Positions 1 through 6,255 of a stretch of 6,255 bases of DNA are shown piece after piece (within the stretch, counting starts at the first letter, position 1; each line of letters begins with the position of its first letter). The stretch comes from Clostridiales bacterium (GTDB taxonomy: Bacteria; Bacillota_B; Dehalobacteriia; UBA4068). A model generated the notes under the pieces. That model searched no databases. It was given only the letters and a program-made list of their open reading frames with translations, and was not told where the DNA came from. The DNA lies in the NCBI GenBank assembly GCA_009782975.1, contig WRIA01000034.1, forward strand, positions 1 through 6,255. The letters are read 5' to 3'. A program made the translations under genes and the position numbers.

Positions 1-203
1 GTCATAGCCCAGGAAATATCCCCGGGCATAAGCACCGTATCCTCCTCTTTAACCGTATCCAGCCAGTTGTCGTATAGCGTGCCGTAATAATCCTGCCACT
101 GCGGGCCGAATATATCCATGGGCTTATAGGTATCGGGCGGTTCGGTGGGTTTAAAAGGGGCGGATAAAGCCAGATGAGGGTCGGATAAGGCAAAAACCTT
201 CAC
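1..203 (-). CDS. Calcineurin-like metallophosphoesterase, N-terminal part (runs off left edge)
   Basis: This is the first 67 codons of a predicted phosphohydrolase of the calcineurin-like superfamily, probably the COG1768-type group common in Clostridia. The start is GTG at 203-201, preceded by AGGAGG (213-218 on the plus strand, read in reverse) with a 9-base gap. No ATG is available upstream of the first catalytic motif. Two metal-site motifs are visible: D8-x-H10 near the N-terminus, within SDPHLAL, and G61-D62 in PGDISW, followed by Trp65. The KPMDIFGPQW segment near residues 28-36 fits the same group. Enzymes of this fold use a two-metal centre to hydrolyse phosphoesters, but the substrate is unknown here. 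The gene lies downstream of pduL on the same strand, with a terminator between them, so it is probably transcribed on its own. The C-terminal part with the remaining His ligands is outside the window. The family call is fairly secure; the specific role is not known. Confidence 0.85.
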   Translation of the reverse strand, partial: MKVFALSDPHLALSAPFKPTEPPDTYKPMDIFGPQWQDYYGTLYDNWLDTVKEEDTVLMPGDISWAM

Positions 204-259
204 GCGGGGTTTCCTCCTGCAAAAAAAATAACAAGTGGCTGTAGCAAAACATCCGTTGT

Positions 260-289
260 TTTATATGCGGCACAGGTGATCTTTTACAA
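260..289 (-). promoter_or_regulatory. Possible sigma-A-type promoter of the metallophosphoesterase gene
   Basis: Read leftward, TTGTAA (plus-strand 284-289) and TATAAA (260-265) are separated by 18 bases. They lie between the pduL terminator and the GTG start at 203. The -10 box matches five of six consensus positions and the -35 box four of six. The position suits a gene that needs its own promoter after the preceding terminator. This rests on pattern matching only. Confidence 0.35.
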
Positions 290-294
290 ACCAC

Positions 295-324
295 AAAAAA
301 AGGCGCTTTACGCGCCCTTTTTTT
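295..324 (-). terminator. Intrinsic terminator of pduL, possibly bidirectional
   Basis: A perfect 5-bp GC stem (GGCGC 302-306 with GCGCC 312-316) has a 5-base loop. It is flanked by seven A (295-301) and seven T (318-324), with one unpaired C at 317. Read leftward it gives hairpin then seven U, beginning within the TAA stop codon of pduL at 325-323. The A tract and T tract allow a longer A-U extension of the stem and would let it work in both directions. It separates pduL from the metallophosphoesterase gene. Confidence 0.85.
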
Positions 325-946
325 ATTCGTGCTTTACCAGCAGAGCCTTGGCATCGTTGCCTAACTGGAAGGAGTTGGCCTCGTCGGTATCCACATGTAC
401 GTCCAGGGCGAATTCGGGATGTACGCGGGCCATAATATTGAAGATAGCCCCGCTTTTTACCCCCTTAAAATATATATCCACCATCTCTTTATCCGTTATG
501 CCTAAACGCTCCCCGTCGCTTGTATGCAAATGTATATGGGGTTTAGCCACTATAACGCCTTCTTCCAGCACAACATAGCCCTTGGGGCCCACCAGCACGC
601 ATCCGGGGCTGCCGGCCAGCTGACCGGAATTGGTAAGCGGCGCCTTTATGCCCAGCTTGCGCGCATCCGTTTGGGCCAGCTCTACCTGAGTCTGGGGGCG
701 CACCGGGCCTAAAATACGCATCTTTTCCATCATACCCTTGGGGCCCACCACGTTTACACATTCATCGCAGGCATATTGGCCGGGCTGGGTCAGATCCTTG
801 ATATTGGTCAGGGTAGCGCCCTTGCCAAAAAGCATCTCCAGATGCTCCTGGCTTACGTGCAGGTGGCGGTTGGAAATACCGACCGGCACAATAAAAGGGT
901 TGGCGCTGTCGCTTAAATCGACGTTTTTGGGGTCTGTAAGGGGCAT
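323..946 (-). CDS. pduL: PduL-type phosphate acyltransferase (phosphotransacylase)
   Basis: The product interconverts acyl-CoA plus phosphate with acyl phosphate plus CoA (propanoyl- or acetyl-CoA), a step that lets acetate or propionate kinase make ATP. The 207-residue protein shows the two-part PduL zinc-enzyme signature. The first part has VPVGISNRHLHVS at residues 20-32, with H28 and H30. The second has PHIHLHTSDGE, with H137, H139 and H141, followed by the typical LDVHVDTDEAN segment with H184. The start is ATG at 946-944, with AGGAGG (plus-strand 954-959) seven bases upstream. Only about 18 residues precede the first domain, so there is no clear room for the amphipathic encapsulation helix of microcompartment-borne PduL, and no shell-protein genes are in view. 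A cytosolic, Pta-like role is therefore likely. It is divergent from the catabolic operon; a link to it through acetate formation is inference. Whether acetyl- or propionyl-CoA is preferred cannot be told. Confidence 0.93.
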   Translation of the reverse strand: MPLTDPKNVDLSDSANPFIVPVGISNRHLHVSQEHLEMLFGKGATLTNIKDLTQPGQYACDECVNVVGPKGMMEKMRILGPVRPQTQVELAQTDARKLGIKAPLTNSGQLAGSPGCVLVGPKGYVVLEEGVIVAKPHIHLHTSDGERLGITDKEMVDIYFKGVKSGAIFNIMARVHPEFALDVHVDTDEANSFQLGNDAKALLVKHE

Positions 947-992
947 AGATCATCCTCCTGTTCAAATTTATCTTTCTTTATGCGATACAGCT

Positions 993-998
993 ATTATA
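993..998 (-). promoter_or_regulatory. Likely -10 box of the pduL promoter
   Basis: Read leftward, a perfect TATAAT lies 46 bases upstream of the pduL ATG, which leaves a leader of roughly 40 bases. The -35 region is poor: TTGTAT occurs upstream, but with a 20-base spacer. The box sits in the self-complementary ATTATAAT (993-1000), so by sequence alone it could also be read rightward (TATAAT 995-1000). Confidence 0.5.
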
Positions 999-1173
999 AT
1001 ACCTAAAACCCGCGGCAAATACAAGCCCCCGTAAATATTCAAATAATTTCAAACAAACACCTTCTTTATAAGCGCCGGTTTTGGCAGGAAAAAACTGATC
1101 CGTGATGAACACTTACTATTACGCTGCTTTAAATATCAACAGAAATTTAGCTTTTGCAAACTATCAATATCTG

Positions 1174-1201
1174 CTGATTATCGATTTTTATTAAATATTA
1201 T
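1174..1201 (+). promoter_or_regulatory. Weak candidate promoter for the ACT-ssnA-ygfK operon
   Basis: TATTAT at 1196-1201 matches five of six -10 positions. CTGATT at 1174-1179, 16 bases upstream, is only a poor -35 match. It would start transcription near 1208 and leave a leader of about 47 bases before the ATG at 1255. An alternative is TTGCAA (1154-1159) with GATTAT (1176-1181). The surrounding sequence is so AT-rich that neither assignment is firm. A weak -35 would fit an activator-dependent promoter, but that is inference. Confidence 0.25.
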
Positions 1202-1217
1202 CTGTTGTTAAATGTTT

Positions 1218-1228
1218 TTTACTGTAAA
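1218..1228. promoter_or_regulatory. Short palindrome TTTACTGTAAA, possible operator
   Basis: A perfect 5-bp dyad around a central T lies 26 bases before the ACT start codon, just upstream of the ribosome site and just downstream of the candidate promoter. This is a suitable place for a repressor site. It is flanked by further loosely symmetrical repeats: TCTGTT 1201-1206 against AACAGA 1227-1232, and GTTGT 1204-1208 against ACAAC 1232-1236. In AT-rich sequence such a short dyad can arise by chance, and no regulator gene is in the window. Confidence 0.2.
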
Positions 1229-1254
1229 CAGACAACTTAATTGGAGGTACCGCT

Positions 1255-1686
1255 ATGAACGTTAAGCAGATTTCTGTTTTTATCGAGAACAAAAAGGGCC
1301 GCCTGATAGCGGTTACCACCTGTCTGGCCGAAAACGAGGTAAATATCCGCGCTCTTTCCGTGGCCGATACCTCGGATTTTGGCATTTTACGCCTTATCGT
1401 GGATCATCCCAACCGTGCCTGCCGCGCGCTTAAGGAGGCCGGCTTTACCGTAAGGGAGACCGATGTGCTGGCCCTGGAGGTTGCGGACGCGCCGGGCGGC
1501 ATAAATGCCGGGTTGACGATACTGGAGCAAGCGGGCATAAACGTGGATTACGTTTACGCCTTTTTAGGCGCGAATAAGGGCAAAGCCCTTAATATTCTTA
1601 AGGTGGATAAAATGGAGGAGGCCGCCCGTGTTTTAAGCGCGGCCGGTTTAAGGTTGCCGGATGGGGAAGAAATATACGGCAGATAA
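1255..1686 (+). CDS. Tandem ACT-domain protein (COG4747-like), putative small-molecule sensor
   Basis: This is a 143-residue protein made of two ACT domains and nothing else, roughly residues 3-70 and 71-137. The first shows the usual beta-alpha-beta start (QISVFIENKKGRL), a helix into NEVNIRALSVAD, and a second half ending GFTVRETDVLALE. The second starts at APGGINAGLTILEQAGINVDY, a hallmark of this family. No catalytic domain or DNA-binding domain is attached. ACT domains usually bind amino acids or related ligands at domain interfaces. Stand-alone pairs of this type are frequent in Clostridia and archaea, often beside aryl-CoA ligase and indolepyruvate oxidoreductase genes, and their function is largely unproven. 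The start ATG has GGAGG (1243-1247) seven bases upstream. It is the first gene of the rightward operon, 45 bases before ssnA, with no terminator between. The family call is secure; the ligand and its role in the operon are unknown. Confidence 0.9.
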   Translation: MNVKQISVFIENKKGRLIAVTTCLAENEVNIRALSVADTSDFGILRLIVDHPNRACRALKEAGFTVRETDVLALEVADAPGGINAGLTILEQAGINVDYVYAFLGANKGKALNILKVDKMEEAARVLSAAGLRLPDGEEIYGR

Positions 1687-1731
1687 AAAATATGGCAAAG
1701 TTTTTTAGCGGTATCATGGGGGGTAAATAGT

Positions 1732-3057
1732 TTGCGCATACTGCATAATGGGCGTTTGCTTACACGCGACACAGACAGGCCCTGGTTTGAAAGGGGCGCT
1801 GTGGCTTTTGCCGGGCCGGGCATAATAGAGGTCGGCCCGGAGCAGGAGATACGCAGGCGTTACCCGGACGCCGCCTTGACAGACGCGGGCGGCGGATTGA
1901 TAATGCCGGCCTTTATAAATATGCACCAGCACGCTTACAGCGCCTTTGCCCGCGGCCTGAATTTGCCCGGTTATGCCCCTAAAAGCTTTGCCGGTATATT
2001 GAATGATTTGTGGTGGCGCCTGGACGCCGCCTTAAACGAGGAGGATATATATCTTTCCGCTTTACTCACCTTTACGGATTGCGTAAAAAACGGCGTTACC
2101 ACGGTTTTTGACCATCATGCCGGTTTTAACGCCATAGAGGGCAGCCTTTCCGTAATAGCGGAGGCAGCGGGGCTGGCGGGTTTACGCGCCTGCCTGTGCT
2201 TCGAGGTATCCGACCGGGCCGGGCAAGGGGCGGCGGCCAGAGCGGTAGCGGAGAACGCCCGCTTTTTGGATAAATGCCGCAAGGAACAAAACCCTGCCCT
2301 TGCCGGTATGATGGGCCTGCACGCCTCCTTTACGGTGTCGGACGCTACCCTGGCCGCCGCCCGCGCCGCGGCCCCGGCCGGTACGGGCTTTCACCTGCAT
2401 CTGGCGGAAGGGCCGGAGGATCAGCATCATTGCCTTAAGGAACATGGCCTGCGGGTGGCGGAACGCTTGCAGCGGGAAGGCATACTGGGCCCGCACAGTA
2501 TAGCGGCTCATGGCATAGATGTGGATGAAAAAGAGATAGCCATACTGGCAAAAAGCCAAACGGCCCTGATACATAACCCTCAATCCAATATGGGCAATGC
2601 CGTGGGCGTAGCTCCCCTTACCGCCATGGAAGCCGCCGGGGTAAAGCTGGGCCTGGGCACGGATGGCTATACCCACGATATGCTGGAAAGCATGAAGGCC
2701 GCCCAATTGCTGCAAAAGCACCATTTACACGATACCAACTCCGGGTTCTCTCTGGCCACGGATATGCTGTTCAGGCAAAACCCGCGTTTGGCCGCGCGGC
2801 ATTTTTCCACCCTGCTGGGGCAGATAAAACCCGGCGCGGCTGCGGATATGATAGTGCTTGATTATGAGCCTTTTACCCCCTTGGACGAAACGAACGCTGA
2901 CGGTCACGCCGTTTTCGGCCTTGGCGGGCGGCAGGTGCGCACCGTGCTTTCCGCCGGACAGCTGTTGTTGTATAAAGGGGAACTATGTAATATAGATGAA
3001 GAAAAGATCTGCGCTGAAGCGCAAAAAGCCGCCCAAAAACTGTGGGCAAGGATGTAA
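1732..3057 (+). CDS. ssnA: SsnA-type amidohydrolase (putative aminohydrolase of purine/urate catabolism)
   Basis: This 441-residue metal-dependent hydrolase belongs to the amidohydrolase superfamily, in the ATZ/TRZ-like branch that includes guanine deaminase. It has a short N-terminal beta domain, then the TIM barrel. Metal motifs are H65-x-H67 (in NMHQHAYS), H223-x-x-E226 (in HLHLAEG), H260 (in AAHG) and D311 (in LGTDG). IHNPQSNM (280-287) is also typical of the branch. Length and conserved stretches, including DLWWRLD (92-98), FDHHA (126-130), HAVFGLGG (392-399) and the C-terminal LWARM, agree with E. coli SsnA, which has nearly the same length. The start is TTG at 1732, behind a G-rich, imperfect ribosome site (GGGGGGT about 1718-1724); no in-frame ATG suits the N-terminus. 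It ends in tandem stops (TAATAA). It lies 22 bases before ygfK, the conserved partner. It probably opens or deaminates a purine-derived ring in the cytosol; the substrate is unproven. Confidence 0.88.
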   Translation: MRILHNGRLLTRDTDRPWFERGAVAFAGPGIIEVGPEQEIRRRYPDAALTDAGGGLIMPAFINMHQHAYSAFARGLNLPGYAPKSFAGILNDLWWRLDAALNEEDIYLSALLTFTDCVKNGVTTVFDHHAGFNAIEGSLSVIAEAAGLAGLRACLCFEVSDRAGQGAAARAVAENARFLDKCRKEQNPALAGMMGLHASFTVSDATLAAARAAAPAGTGFHLHLAEGPEDQHHCLKEHGLRVAERLQREGILGPHSIAAHGIDVDEKEIAILAKSQTALIHNPQSNMGNAVGVAPLTAMEAAGVKLGLGTDGYTHDMLESMKAAQLLQKHHLHDTNSGFSLATDMLFRQNPRLAARHFSTLLGQIKPGAAADMIVLDYEPFTPLDETNADGHAVFGLGGRQVRTVLSAGQLLLYKGELCNIDEEKICAEAQKAAQKLWARM

Positions 3058-3079
3058 TAAAAAAATAACGGAGGACTTT

Positions 3080-6022
3080 ATGTCGGATACTATGCGCCCG
3101 CAAAATTTTTCTCAATTTATGGAAGGGTTGCTAAACGAATACGCGGAGGAGGAAACCGCTTTGGGCCTGCCCAGATTGCTGCGTATGGGGCAGGAAGGCG
3201 GCATAACGGTGTTGCCCGGGCAAAACCCGGAAAACCTGCTGGGCCCGGCGGCCGGTCCTCATACCCAGCTGGCCGGCGGCATAGTGACCGCTTATCTGGC
3301 GGGAGGACGTTACTTTGAGCTTAAAACTGTGCAAAAGCTGTACGGCAAGGCGCTGGGCATCAATAAACCCTGCATATATGCCTTAGACGAAGGATATAAC
3401 TCCGAGTGGTCCAGCGAATTTTCCCCGGAGCAGGCTTTGGCCGAATACATACGCGCCTATTATGCCATCTGCCTTTTAAGCAGGGAATGGTATCTGGGCC
3501 GCCCGGATGGCTTTATCTTCAATATAAGCGTGGGTTACGACCTGGCGGGCATAAAAAGCGCCGCTGTGGATAGCTTTATAGAAGGGGCAAAGAACGCTTC
3601 CTCTACCGAAGCCTGGCGCGAATGTACGCAATGGGCACAGGCCAACCTGCACCGCTTCGACCGGGTCGACGCAGCCTTTTTGGCAAGCATAAGCCCCCGC
3701 TTAAGCACCTCCGTAACACTTTCCACCCTTCATGGCTGCCCGGCCGGGGAAATAGAGGCTATAGCAGCTTATCTGCTGGAGAAAAAAGGGCTGCATACAT
3801 TTATAAAATGTAACCCTACCCTGTTAGGGGCGCGTTTTGTGTCGCGGGTACTGCACCGTTTTGGCTACAGCCTGCGCACAGACCCCCGTCATTTTAAGGA
3901 TGACCTGCAAATGGAGCAGGCGTTGCCCATGTTTGGCCGTTTAAAGGCTTTAGGCATGGAAAAAGGGCTGGTGTTCGGCTTAAAGTTAAGCAATACCCTG
4001 CCGGTGGTGAATAATGATAAACTGCTTGACGCCCCGGAACTTTATTTAAGCGGGCCGCCCCTTTATCCCCTAACGGTGAATCTGGCCGCCAAATTAGCCG
4101 AGAACAGCGGCGGCGAGCTGCCTATCTCCTATTGCGGCGGGCTGGACGCGGAAAACGCGCCGGGCTTGTTGCGGGCGGGGCTTTATCCCCTTACCTGCGC
4201 CACAATACTGCTTAAGCCCGGCGGCTATACCCGTCTGACGGATATAGCGGAAGCCTGCGCGGGCATCATGCCGCCGCCGCATATAAATATTAAGCTGCTT
4301 AAAGAACTGGCGGCGCGCTCGCTTTCGGATGGCCACTATCACAAGCTTGGTTTAAGCGGAAAAAAGAATGGCGGAAAGCTGCCTTTGGAGGATTGCGGCG
4401 GCGCGCCCTGCAGCATGGCATGTCCCTTTACCCAGGACATACCGGCTTATCTGCGCGCTTTTAACAGGCAGGACGAGCTTTTGGCCGCGCATATAATCCG
4501 CGGGCGCAACACATTGCCTTCCATAACCGGGTATATATGCCCTCACCGCTGCGAGGGCTTTTGCCGCCGCGCCAATTACGACGAACCCCTGCAGATACGA
4601 AGCTGCAAGCGTATAGCTATAGAGGATGCGGAAATAACATTTTATCAGGCAAAATACCTGCCTAAAAAAGAGGAGGCCCTTGTAAAAGGACGTTTTGCGG
4701 AAAACCTGCCGCCGGCCCTTTTGGGGCGGGCAGCGGTGGTGGGGGCAGGCCCCGCCGGGCTTTCTACAGCTTATTTACTGCGGCGCGGCGGCTATAAGGT
4801 GGATGTTTACGAGCGCGCGGAAAAGACAGGCGGCCTGCCGCGGCAGGTTATACCCGCCTTCCGCCTGCCGGACGAAGCCCTTGTAAGGGATTTGAAGGCT
4901 TTGGAGGATCCGGATATAGCGTATTTCTGCGGGCAGGAAATAGAAAACCCCGCGGAACTGCTGCAAAGATATACAGTGGTGGTGCTGGCCACGGGAGCCT
5001 CCCTTCCGGGCTGCCTGCATCTGGAATACGGGGAAAGCATAAATGCGCTGGATTTTTTGCGCGAAGCCAAACAAAGCCCCCATACCCTGGATGTGGGATG
5101 CTCCGTGGCCGTGGTGGGCGGCGGCAATACCGCTATAGACGCGGCCCGGACCGCCCTGCGTCTGCCCGGGGTGGTGGAGGCGCATATAGTATATAGGCGC
5201 AGCCGCGCCCTGATGCCGGCGGAAGCGGAGGAATTGGCGCTGGCCCTAACCGAAGGCGTACAACTTCATCCCCTGGCTTTGCCCGTTGGTATTCAGGACG
5301 CCGTGTTGAATTGCGAGTATATGCGGCTTTCTCTGCCGGGGCCGGACGGCCGACGGGAACCGCGTCCTTTAGGCAAATTTTTCGATTTGCCGGTAGATAC
5401 CCTGGTGGCCGCAGTGGGCGAGCAGGTGGATAGCGAATACTATCGCCGGGCCGGGCTGGCCTTGGATAAAAACGGCCTGCCCCGTCTGGACGAAAACCTG
5501 CAAAGCAGCATACCGCGGCTGTATGTGGCTGGAGACGGCAAGGCCGGACCGGCCACCGTGGCACAGGCCATTGCCGACGCCTGGCGCATAGCCGGAGCAG
5601 TTACCGGCCTGAAACCACCTACCATAGAAAAAGACGAACGCGCCGCGGCGGCGGCGCGGCGGCGCAAGGTACGCAAGGCCACGGAAACTATGGAGCCGGG
5701 GCGCTGCTTAAGCTGTGATCTGGCCTGCGAATGTTGCGTGGATGTTTGCCCCAACCGCGCCAACCGCGTGCTTACACTAAACGGAAAAAGACAGATACTG
5801 CATATGGACGCTCTTTGCAATGAATGTGGCAACTGTGCCGTGTTTTGCCCCTACGAAGGCGCGCCCTACCGGGATAAACCCACATTTTTTGCCACCAGGG
5901 AGGGTTTTGCGGCCAGCGCCAATCCCGGTATAGTGTTCGATAACAAGGGTTCGGTAATATCCCGCGGGCTGCCGGAAAAAACCGCCAAAGAACTGGCCGC
6001 GGCGCTTAAACCGGAAATTTAG
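3080..6022 (+). CDS. ygfK: YgfK-type multidomain Fe-S flavoprotein (annotated 'putative selenate reductase subunit')
   Basis: This is a 980-residue cytosolic oxidoreductase. Residues 1-420 form a dihydroorotate-dehydrogenase-like barrel (GPAAGPHTQLA 55-65, LHGCP 217-221, NPTLLG 245-250, GLKLSNTLP 300-308, LLKPGGY 377-383). Residues 435-515 form a GltD/DPD-type Fe-S domain with C439, C444, C448, C487, C491 and C495. Next come FAD and NAD(P)H folds: G555-A-G-P-A-G560 with E578, then G680-G-G-N-T-A685 with YRRSR (705-709), and a second FAD motif at VAGDG (816-820). The C-terminus is a two-cluster ferredoxin (C876, C879, C883, C886, C890; C913, C916, C919, C923). I start it at ATG 3080, with GGAGG five bases upstream and an N-terminus (MSDTMRP) like E. 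coli MGDIMRP; the frame is open to 2996, but that would overlap ssnA and add a lysine-rich stretch. Family membership is secure. The selenate-reductase name is doubtful; electron transfer from NAD(P)H in purine or urate catabolism is more likely. Confidence 0.92.
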   Translation: MSDTMRPQNFSQFMEGLLNEYAEEETALGLPRLLRMGQEGGITVLPGQNPENLLGPAAGPHTQLAGGIVTAYLAGGRYFELKTVQKLYGKALGINKPCIYALDEGYNSEWSSEFSPEQALAEYIRAYYAICLLSREWYLGRPDGFIFNISVGYDLAGIKSAAVDSFIEGAKNASSTEAWRECTQWAQANLHRFDRVDAAFLASISPRLSTSVTLSTLHGCPAGEIEAIAAYLLEKKGLHTFIKCNPTLLGARFVSRVLHRFGYSLRTDPRHFKDDLQMEQALPMFGRLKALGMEKGLVFGLKLSNTLPVVNNDKLLDAPELYLSGPPLYPLTVNLAAKLAENSGGELPISYCGGLDAENAPGLLRAGLYPLTCATILLKPGGYTRLTDIAEACAGIMPPPHINIKLLKELAARSLSDGHYHKLGLSGKKNGGKLPLEDCGGAPCSMACPFTQDIPAYLRAFNRQDELLAAHIIRGRNTLPSITGYICPHRCEGFCRRANYDEPLQIRSCKRIAIEDAEITFYQAKYLPKKEEALVKGRFAENLPPALLGRAAVVGAGPAGLSTAYLLRRGGYKVDVYERAEKTGGLPRQVIPAFRLPDEALVRDLKALEDPDIAYFCGQEIENPAELLQRYTVVVLATGASLPGCLHLEYGESINALDFLREAKQSPHTLDVGCSVAVVGGGNTAIDAARTALRLPGVVEAHIVYRRSRALMPAEAEELALALTEGVQLHPLALPVGIQDAVLNCEYMRLSLPGPDGRREPRPLGKFFDLPVDTLVAAVGEQVDSEYYRRAGLALDKNGLPRLDENLQSSIPRLYVAGDGKAGPATVAQAIADAWRIAGAVTGLKPPTIEKDERAAAAARRRKVRKATETMEPGRCLSCDLACECCVDVCPNRANRVLTLNGKRQILHMDALCNECGNCAVFCPYEGAPYRDKPTFFATREGFAASANPGIVFDNKGSVISRGLPEKTAKELAAALKPEI

Positions 6023-6039
6023 CCTGCAAGGAGGCATTT

Positions 6040-6255
6040 ATGAAAATATTGATAAAAAACGGCCTGCTAGTTAAAGCGGAAAGCTGTACGCGCGCCGATT
6101 TGCTTATAGAGGATGAGCGCATAGCGGCCATAGCCCCTGAAATAAATGATACCGAAGCCGAGGAATACGACGCCGAGGGCTGTATGGTCTTTCCCGGTTT
6201 TATAGACGCGCATACCCATTTGGATATGTACGCGGGCACCTGCCATACCGCCGAT
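6040..6255 (+). CDS. Dihydropyrimidinase/hydantoinase-like amidohydrolase, N-terminal part (runs off right edge)
   Basis: These are the first 72 codons of a cyclic-amide hydrolase. The N-terminal beta-sandwich start (MKILIKNGLLV, then DLLIEDERIAAIAP) leads to PGFIDAHTHLDM at residues 52-63. It carries the HxH metal pair at H58 and H60, and the following GTCHTAD resembles the GT-x-x-TADDF segment of D-hydantoinases and dihydropyrimidinases. The start ATG follows AAGGAGG (6028-6034) by five bases and lies 17 bases after the ygfK stop, so the two genes are co-transcribed and probably efficiently translated. Enzymes of this family open cyclic ureides such as dihydrouracil, hydantoin or related purine breakdown rings. 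A hydantoinase-like gene beside ygfK and ssnA matches the composition reported for anaerobic urate-degradation loci. Dihydroorotase or allantoinase are alternatives that cannot be excluded because the carboxylated lysine and other ligands lie beyond the window. Confidence 0.83.
   Translation, partial: MKILIKNGLLVKAESCTRADLLIEDERIAAIAPEINDTEAEEYDAEGCMVFPGFIDAHTHLDMYAGTCHTAD

Follow-up and report, generated by a model that had tools for sequence, protein, structure and literature searches.

The window analyzed here is the whole 6,255-base stretch (guanine-plus-cytosine fraction, 0.54) of contig WRIA01000034.1 from a Clostridiales bacterium (GenBank assembly GCA_009782975.1), and it very probably holds the 5' part of an operon for the reductive (anaerobic) degradation of uric acid. 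On one strand it encodes the aminohydrolase SsnA, the flavin/iron-sulfur reductase YgfK, and the beginning of a hydantoinase-like protein, probably HyuA, whose gene is cut by the right end of the window at position 6255. The present analysis shows which genes are there and in what order, which residues they conserve, which folds are predicted for their products, and which genes accompany their relatives, whereas the chemistry was taken from the literature; we infer that the same chemistry acts on the same substrate in this divergent lineage. We class the window as a new, divergent representative of a system that is already known and was recently characterized, not as a new kind of system. It would encode the middle steps only, from yanthine to 2,3-diureidopropionate (DUPA), and the entry of urate through an XdhD-type step lies outside the view.

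SsnA, YgfK, and the predicted route

The window SsnA passed the curated cutoffs of two family models, scoring 551 bits against NF005540 (cutoff, 444) and 510 bits against TIGR03314 (cutoff, 455.5), and is 36% identical to Escherichia coli SsnA over 430 columns. Likewise, YgfK scored 988 bits against TIGR03315 (cutoff, 835.3), covering model positions 1 to 970 of 1012, and is 39% identical to its E. coli counterpart over 1004 columns. Each of the models TIGR03314 and TIGR03315 exceeded its cutoff in 1 of 14 control genomes, and given this rarity the side-by-side placement of ssnA and ygfK is not chance. For both proteins, invariant columns were defined in alignments of E. coli and the first 25 loci of the 64-locus survey described below. 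The 60 SsnA columns that do not vary among the 24 other aligned sequences are all retained in the window protein, and residues H65, H67, H223, H260, and D311, which we take from the amidohydrolase superfamily to be metal ligands, are invariant throughout the alignment. YgfK keeps 155 of the 166 columns invariant in the 26 other aligned sequences.

The structure model of YgfK (predicted local distance difference test score, 88.4) begins with a dihydroorotate-dehydrogenase-like barrel, continues with a predicted flavin adenine dinucleotide (FAD)-NAD(P)H part that resembles those of NfnA, GltD, and dihydropyrimidine dehydrogenase (DPD), and ends in C-terminal cysteine motifs. Cysteines 439, 444, 448, 487, 491, and 495, as well as 876, 879, 883, 886, 890, 913, 916, 919, and 923, are invariant across 45 sequences. 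The predicted flavin barrel, the predicted FAD/NAD(P)H part, and the putative iron-sulfur cysteines are thus all present. Compared with DPD (PydA), the order of the parts differs: the YgfK barrel is N-terminal, ahead of the FAD part, whereas the flavin barrel of DPD comes after it.

An earlier note on this DNA had described a run of ssnA, ygfK, and a hydantoinase-like gene with spacers of 17 to 22 bases, and the open reading frame (ORF) coordinates agree: 22 bases separate ssnA from ygfK and 17 separate ygfK from hyuA, all on the forward strand, with 45 bases between ssnA and the preceding ACT-domain gene. GGAGG stands ahead of the ATG of both ygfK and hyuA, and a run of six G's stands ahead of the TTG of ssnA. 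We read ygfK from the ATG behind GGAGG (position 3080); the mechanical ORF opens earlier, at 2996.

The reductive uric acid pathway was characterized in 2025, with pyruvate and ammonia as end products, and its enzymology is taken here from the relevant passages of that report (PMC12507026). Purified XdhD reduced urate to yanthine (2,8-dioxopurine). E. coli YgfK and SsnA together converted yanthine to ureidomethyl-hydantoin (UMH) in vitro, either protein alone being described as inactive, and HyuA from Clostridioides difficile converted UMH to DUPA in vitro. YgeW or UacY then yields albizziin, and YgeY with YgeX leads on to pyruvate. The same passages present dihydro-yanthine as an intermediate that was inferred and never detected, and they name SsnA as a marker by which uricolytic clusters can be robustly recognized. 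According to a commentary (PMC12990295), the pathway was reached by two independent groups, which disagree on which ureido group leaves first.

Applied to the window, this scheme would have electrons pass from NAD(P)H through FAD and the iron-sulfur clusters to the flavin in the N-terminal barrel of YgfK, where the pyrimidine ring of yanthine would be reduced. SsnA would hydrolyze the dihydro-ring to UMH, drawing the unfavorable YgfK reduction forward, and HyuA would open the hydantoin ring of UMH to give DUPA. Elsewhere in the genome, one would expect a molybdenum enzyme of the XdhD type, which makes yanthine from urate ahead of these steps, and, after them, YgeW or UacY, YgeY, and YgeX, which lead to pyruvate and ammonia. 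The earlier note had assigned the trio to a cluster for anaerobic urate breakdown, an assignment that the families, gene order, and relatives support; its naming of xanthine as a product did not stand, as the characterized first product is yanthine in the account given in PMC12507026.

Neighborhoods of ygfK in other genomes

YgfK was sought in three genome samples at an E value of ≤1e-150 and was found in 8 of 391, 18 of 295, and 40 of 398 genomes, which gave 64 distinct loci after the removal of repeats. Genes at these loci were labeled by their best BLASTP match to E. coli K-12 and window proteins (E ≤ 1e-6), with UacX and UacY outside the query set. An identity of 40% divided the label "xdhDlike" from "xdhAlike", and matches to ygeX below 30% received the separate label "PLP?". 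Eight of the 64 fetched stretches are shorter than 15 kb, and the absence of a gene there means little.

Within the fetched stretches, ssnA was present at 51 of the 64 loci, ygeY at 35, ygeW at 30, ygeX at 12, and hyuA at 11. At 39 loci, ssnA was the immediate same-strand neighbor of ygfK, placed upstream in 23 (the arrangement of the window) and downstream in 16, and 31 of these 39 also carried hyuA, ygeX, ygeY, ygeW, or an xdh-type gene. The order ssnA-ygfK-hyuA occurred at six loci (L034, L035, L036, L044, L088, and L090); hyuA followed ygfK at six, with ssnA upstream in every one. The ssnA-ygfK spacing in L034 exceeds the 300-base limit for adjacency, so that the strict same-order count is five, and all five carry ygeX, ygeY, or ygeW within the stretch. 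In the clearest case, L090, a single strand reads ssnA-ygfK-hyuA-ygeX-ygeY-ygeW-yqeA-permease. Genome-wide, YgeY and YgeW exceeded their cutoffs in all six same-order genomes and YgeX in five; with genome G973 added, the counts became 7/7, 7/7, and 5/7.

The adjacency of ssnA and ygfK in E. coli, stated in the earlier note, was confirmed in the K-12 uricolytic cluster (b2870-b2881), which runs ygeW-ygeX-ygeY-hyuA-yqeA ... ygfK-ssnA-ygfM-xdhD. This cluster and the window have in common the YgfK and SsnA families, probably the HyuA family, the FAD/NAD(P)H part of YgfK, and the placement of ygfK beside ssnA. In E. coli, however, ygfK is ahead of ssnA, hyuA is several genes off, and ygfM-xdhD lies directly behind ssnA, whereas the window has the hyuA-like gene behind ygfK and the ACT gene before ssnA. 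Closer in layout are L035, L036, L044, L088, and L090 (and L034, with its wider gap), which match the window in the three genes, their order, and their strand but whose YgfK and SsnA are 41 to 48% identical to those of the window. At four of these six loci, ygeX-ygeY-ygeW lies upstream on the opposite strand, where the window carries the ACT and phosphotransacylase genes. The C. difficile variant (UacX and UacY) shares the SsnA step, and probably the HyuA step, with the window; as set out in the passages of PMC12507026 on this variant, UacX, which has no FAD domain, takes the place of YgfK, and the full-length YgfK of the window differs on that description.

A tree made by a quick method groups the window YgfK in one clade with P0002 to P0004, three proteins from the database (75 to 78% identical; support, 100), and its next-nearest relatives are P0007 and G973. 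The SsnA tree pairs the window with G973 (100/97). As both trees place the window by G973, these sequences suggest that ssnA and ygfK of this lineage were inherited as a pair. Of the three close relatives of the window YgfK, two have an SsnA counterpart from an assembly whose longest contig is of the same length (7,882 and 76,106 bases), which suggests that the two genes are linked there as well. Genomes from the three samples held no YgfK more than 48% identical to that of the window, and the 75 to 78% relatives are known as proteins only.

Contrary evidence and rival readings

Several observations weigh against assigning the window to uric acid degradation. Up to position 6255, it carries no gene for XdhD, YgeW/UacY, YgeY, YgeX, or a permease, in keeping with the statement of the earlier note that the other usual members are out of view. 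Among the seven genomes named above (six same-order genomes and G973), YgeX was not found in two (G973 and G002), and XdhD passed its cutoff in none, with weaker matches in five. Furthermore, ssnA is absent from the fetched stretch at 13 of the 64 ygfK loci, and where the two genes are adjacent (39 loci), 8 loci lack any further pathway or xdh-type gene there; YgfK therefore need not always signal a uricolytic operon. G973, whose YgfK and SsnA make it the genome closest to the window, has its uricolytic genes dispersed. The proteins themselves are divergent: 11 of the 166 YgfK invariants are altered (at 10 of these, every protein of the four-member clade deviates), the stem of the YgfK clade measures 1.27 changes per column by the quick tree method, and the window SsnA sits on an end branch of 1.32.

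In G973 (contigs C13 and C33; loci L089 and L132), ygfK lies just upstream of rpoB, ssnA lies directly behind a FakA-like gene (YloV family), and ygeY and ygeW are elsewhere. The loci without ssnA in the stretch include L092, L094, L095, L096, L099, L101, L108, and L110; the order at L092, L094, and L108 is xdhB-like, ygfK, carbamate-kinase-like. Seven of these eight loci sit in one 11-member YgfK subclade, three members of which have ssnA. Such loci may belong to a dispersed pathway, or their YgfK may act in a different reaction.

The long YgfK stem, the long SsnA branch, and the altered YgfK columns also favor a reading in which the YgfK/SsnA pair of the window clade acts on another oxopurine or a related heterocycle rather than on yanthine. 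We consider such a shift unlikely, as all 60 SsnA invariants and 155 of the 166 YgfK invariants are retained and the neighbor is hyuA-like, as in clusters holding more of the gene set. In addition, the amino acid makeup of both window proteins was flagged as unusual, which can stretch branches with no change in function and could account for part of the branch lengths seen here. Similarly doubtful is an extended version for the clade of the window and P0002 to P0004, in which a shifted YgfK/SsnA would feed a different reduced purine into the hydantoin route, perhaps finished by a pair of pyridoxal phosphate (PLP) enzymes, ThrC-like and CysK-like, replacing YgeX. Reduction of yanthine in uric acid degradation remains the preferred reading.

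The PLP pair is a feature of several ygfK neighborhoods. In G973, hyuA and the ThrC-like and CysK-like genes point away from ygfK, and an aminopeptidase-like gene intervenes. The pair at L089 (threonine-synthase-like and cysteine-synthase-like; PF00291) occupies positions 4171 to 5520 and 5424 to 6893, both on the minus strand, and relatives of the pair lie near ygfK at L037, L038, L039, L098, L119, L120, and L123. The complete pair is present in 8 of the 64 neighborhoods, that of G973 included, and four of the eight have ygeY or ygeW and no ygeX. In the 398-genome sample, CysK-like matches were found in 37 of 40 YgfK genomes versus 49 of 358 others (Fisher, 9e-25) and ThrC-like matches in 37 of 40 versus 39 of 358 (Fisher, 2e-27), figures that ignore relatedness and come from two queries with differing E-value limits, both drawn from a YgfK-bearing genome. 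CysK-like matches fall into a closer group (about 57 to 72% identical) and a weaker group (about 34 to 46%), and many YgfK genomes have the weaker only. Possibly, this pair, which stands outside the E. coli pathway scheme, breaks down diaminopropionate where ygeX is missing; its replacement of YgeX is not established, since genome G1023 carries YgeX and the pair together. Among the papers listed in one literature search, no title or abstract opening reported a link of uric acid with threonine synthase or diaminopropionate ammonia-lyase.

For the third gene, the 72-residue fragment matched TIGR02033 (D-hydantoinase) best among NCBIfam models, at 68.5 bits and an E value of 5e-19, with the next model at 4e-14; the cutoff of 393.25 applies to a model of 454 positions, of which the window could show only the part matching its 72 residues. 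Aligned with E. coli HyuA over 73 columns, the fragment shows 41% identity. With so short a sequence visible, and with Amidohydro_3, which PMC12507026 takes as the Pfam family for UacY, as its sole Pfam match, the gene might instead encode another amidohydrolase (a UacY-type D-aminoacylase or a dihydroorotase), which would make the operon a different variant. The margin of the D-hydantoinase model argues against this, as do the best matches among survey ORFs, the hyuA genes of L036 (59%), L035 (49%), and L088 (47%), each of which is the next pathway gene behind ssnA-ygfK, and we regard another amidohydrolase as quite improbable. The third gene is probably hyuA, with its closest resemblance to the hyuA of other ssnA-ygfK loci.

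A function in selenium metabolism, with YgfK as a selenate reductase subunit and SsnA as a selenium metabolism protein, follows the old NCBIfam names of TIGR03315 and TIGR03314 but is extremely improbable, as purified YgfK and SsnA work on yanthine by the account in PMC12507026, and the selenium link more likely runs via the labile selenium cofactor of molybdenum hydroxylases, with yqeB required for C. difficile growth on urate according to the relevant portion of PMC11448449 and with yqeB present in 8 of the 64 ygfK stretches and yqeC in 6. At L033, ssnA-ygfK is followed by yqeC and yqeB, with an xdhC-type gene also present, and at L053, yqeC and yqeB come before ssnA-ygfK; these genes are linked to that selenium cofactor.

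Flanking genes, transcription signals, and wider meaning

Coordinates of all features are collected in Table 1.

Table 1. Features of the window with position, strand, and basis of assignment
Feature	Position	Strand	Basis
Metallophosphoesterase-like gene start	Left edge of window	-	Authors' reading of the sequence; no Pfam or NCBIfam match
Phosphate propanoyltransferase (PduL/PTAC)	323-946	-	Pfam and NCBIfam
ACT-domain-pair protein (PF19571 ACT_8), 143 amino acids	1255-1686	+	Pfam ACT_8, 100 bits
Gap between ACT gene and ssnA, 45 bases, six-G run ahead of TTG	1687-1731	+	Sequence
ssnA, aminohydrolase SsnA, 441 amino acids, TTG start	1732-3057	+	NF005540, TIGR03314
ygfK, flavin/iron-sulfur reductase YgfK, 980 amino acids	3080-6022	+	TIGR03315
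Probable hyuA 5' end, hydantoinase-like, 72 codons, open at window end	6040-6255	+	TIGR02033 best model

The ACT_8 protein has many relatives, the named ones mostly from Bacillota. None occurred in the 64 ygfK neighborhoods at E ≤ 1e-6, and among the 120 matches listed of 7069, none comes from an assembly whose largest contig equals in length that of any of the three close YgfK relatives, an indirect comparison. The G973 homolog (48% identical) lies immediately 3' of a phenylacetate-CoA-ligase-like gene (556 bits, below the 646-bit cutoff) and more than 5 kb downstream of ssnA. We considered the ACT gene as a member of the uricolytic operon and rejected it, there being no relative in the 64 loci and no sign of a link to the pathway; its cotranscription with ssnA-ygfK is possible. 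The earlier note had begun the operon at 1255, which holds from ssnA onward and is not supported for the ACT gene: the conserved part starts at 1732 because the ACT gene has no relative in the surveyed neighborhoods. Farther left, the PduL/PTAC gene is divergent from the operon and has a terminator-like hairpin at 323 to 295; none of the 64 loci carries a counterpart of this gene.

No forward-strand terminator-like site was found inside the three gaps (ACT-ssnA, ssnA-ygfK, and ygfK-hyuA), and from the promoter and terminator scans, only this absence is used as evidence. Forward-strand terminator-like sites occurred at 302 to 316, at 907 to 923, and within the ACT, ssnA, and ygfK genes. Terminator-like sites numbered 11 versus 4.5 expected (positions 200 to 3100) and 9 versus 5.4 expected (3000 to 6255); sigma-70-like sites numbered 6 versus 3.0 and 1 versus 2.3 in the same two intervals. 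A functional RNA or purine riboswitch was sought and rejected, with no Rfam match at the gathering score and two weak minus-strand matches (E values, 0.053 and 0.17) at 222 to 357. The section of PMC6615313 on the subject predicts ygeW-ygfK-ssnA-ygeY of some Clostridiales to be part of a sigma-54/DioR regulon. A DioR-type promoter was likewise rejected for the window, where 21 loose matches compare with 26.6 expected and none with ≤2 mismatches lies upstream of the ACT gene or ssnA; there is no evidence in the window for membership in that regulon.

Anaerobic uric acid breakdown matters for nitrogen recycling in termites, and as described in part of PMC12507026, its operation in gut bacteria influences host urate. 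Urate-degrading Clostridia of the termite gut were reported in 2012, before any key gene was known, according to the portion of PMC4036019 concerned. To this system, the window adds a divergent branch, which widens the range of sequences for judging YgfK and SsnA as marker genes. What makes it of interest is this lineage and the question of whether its YgfK and SsnA still act on yanthine.

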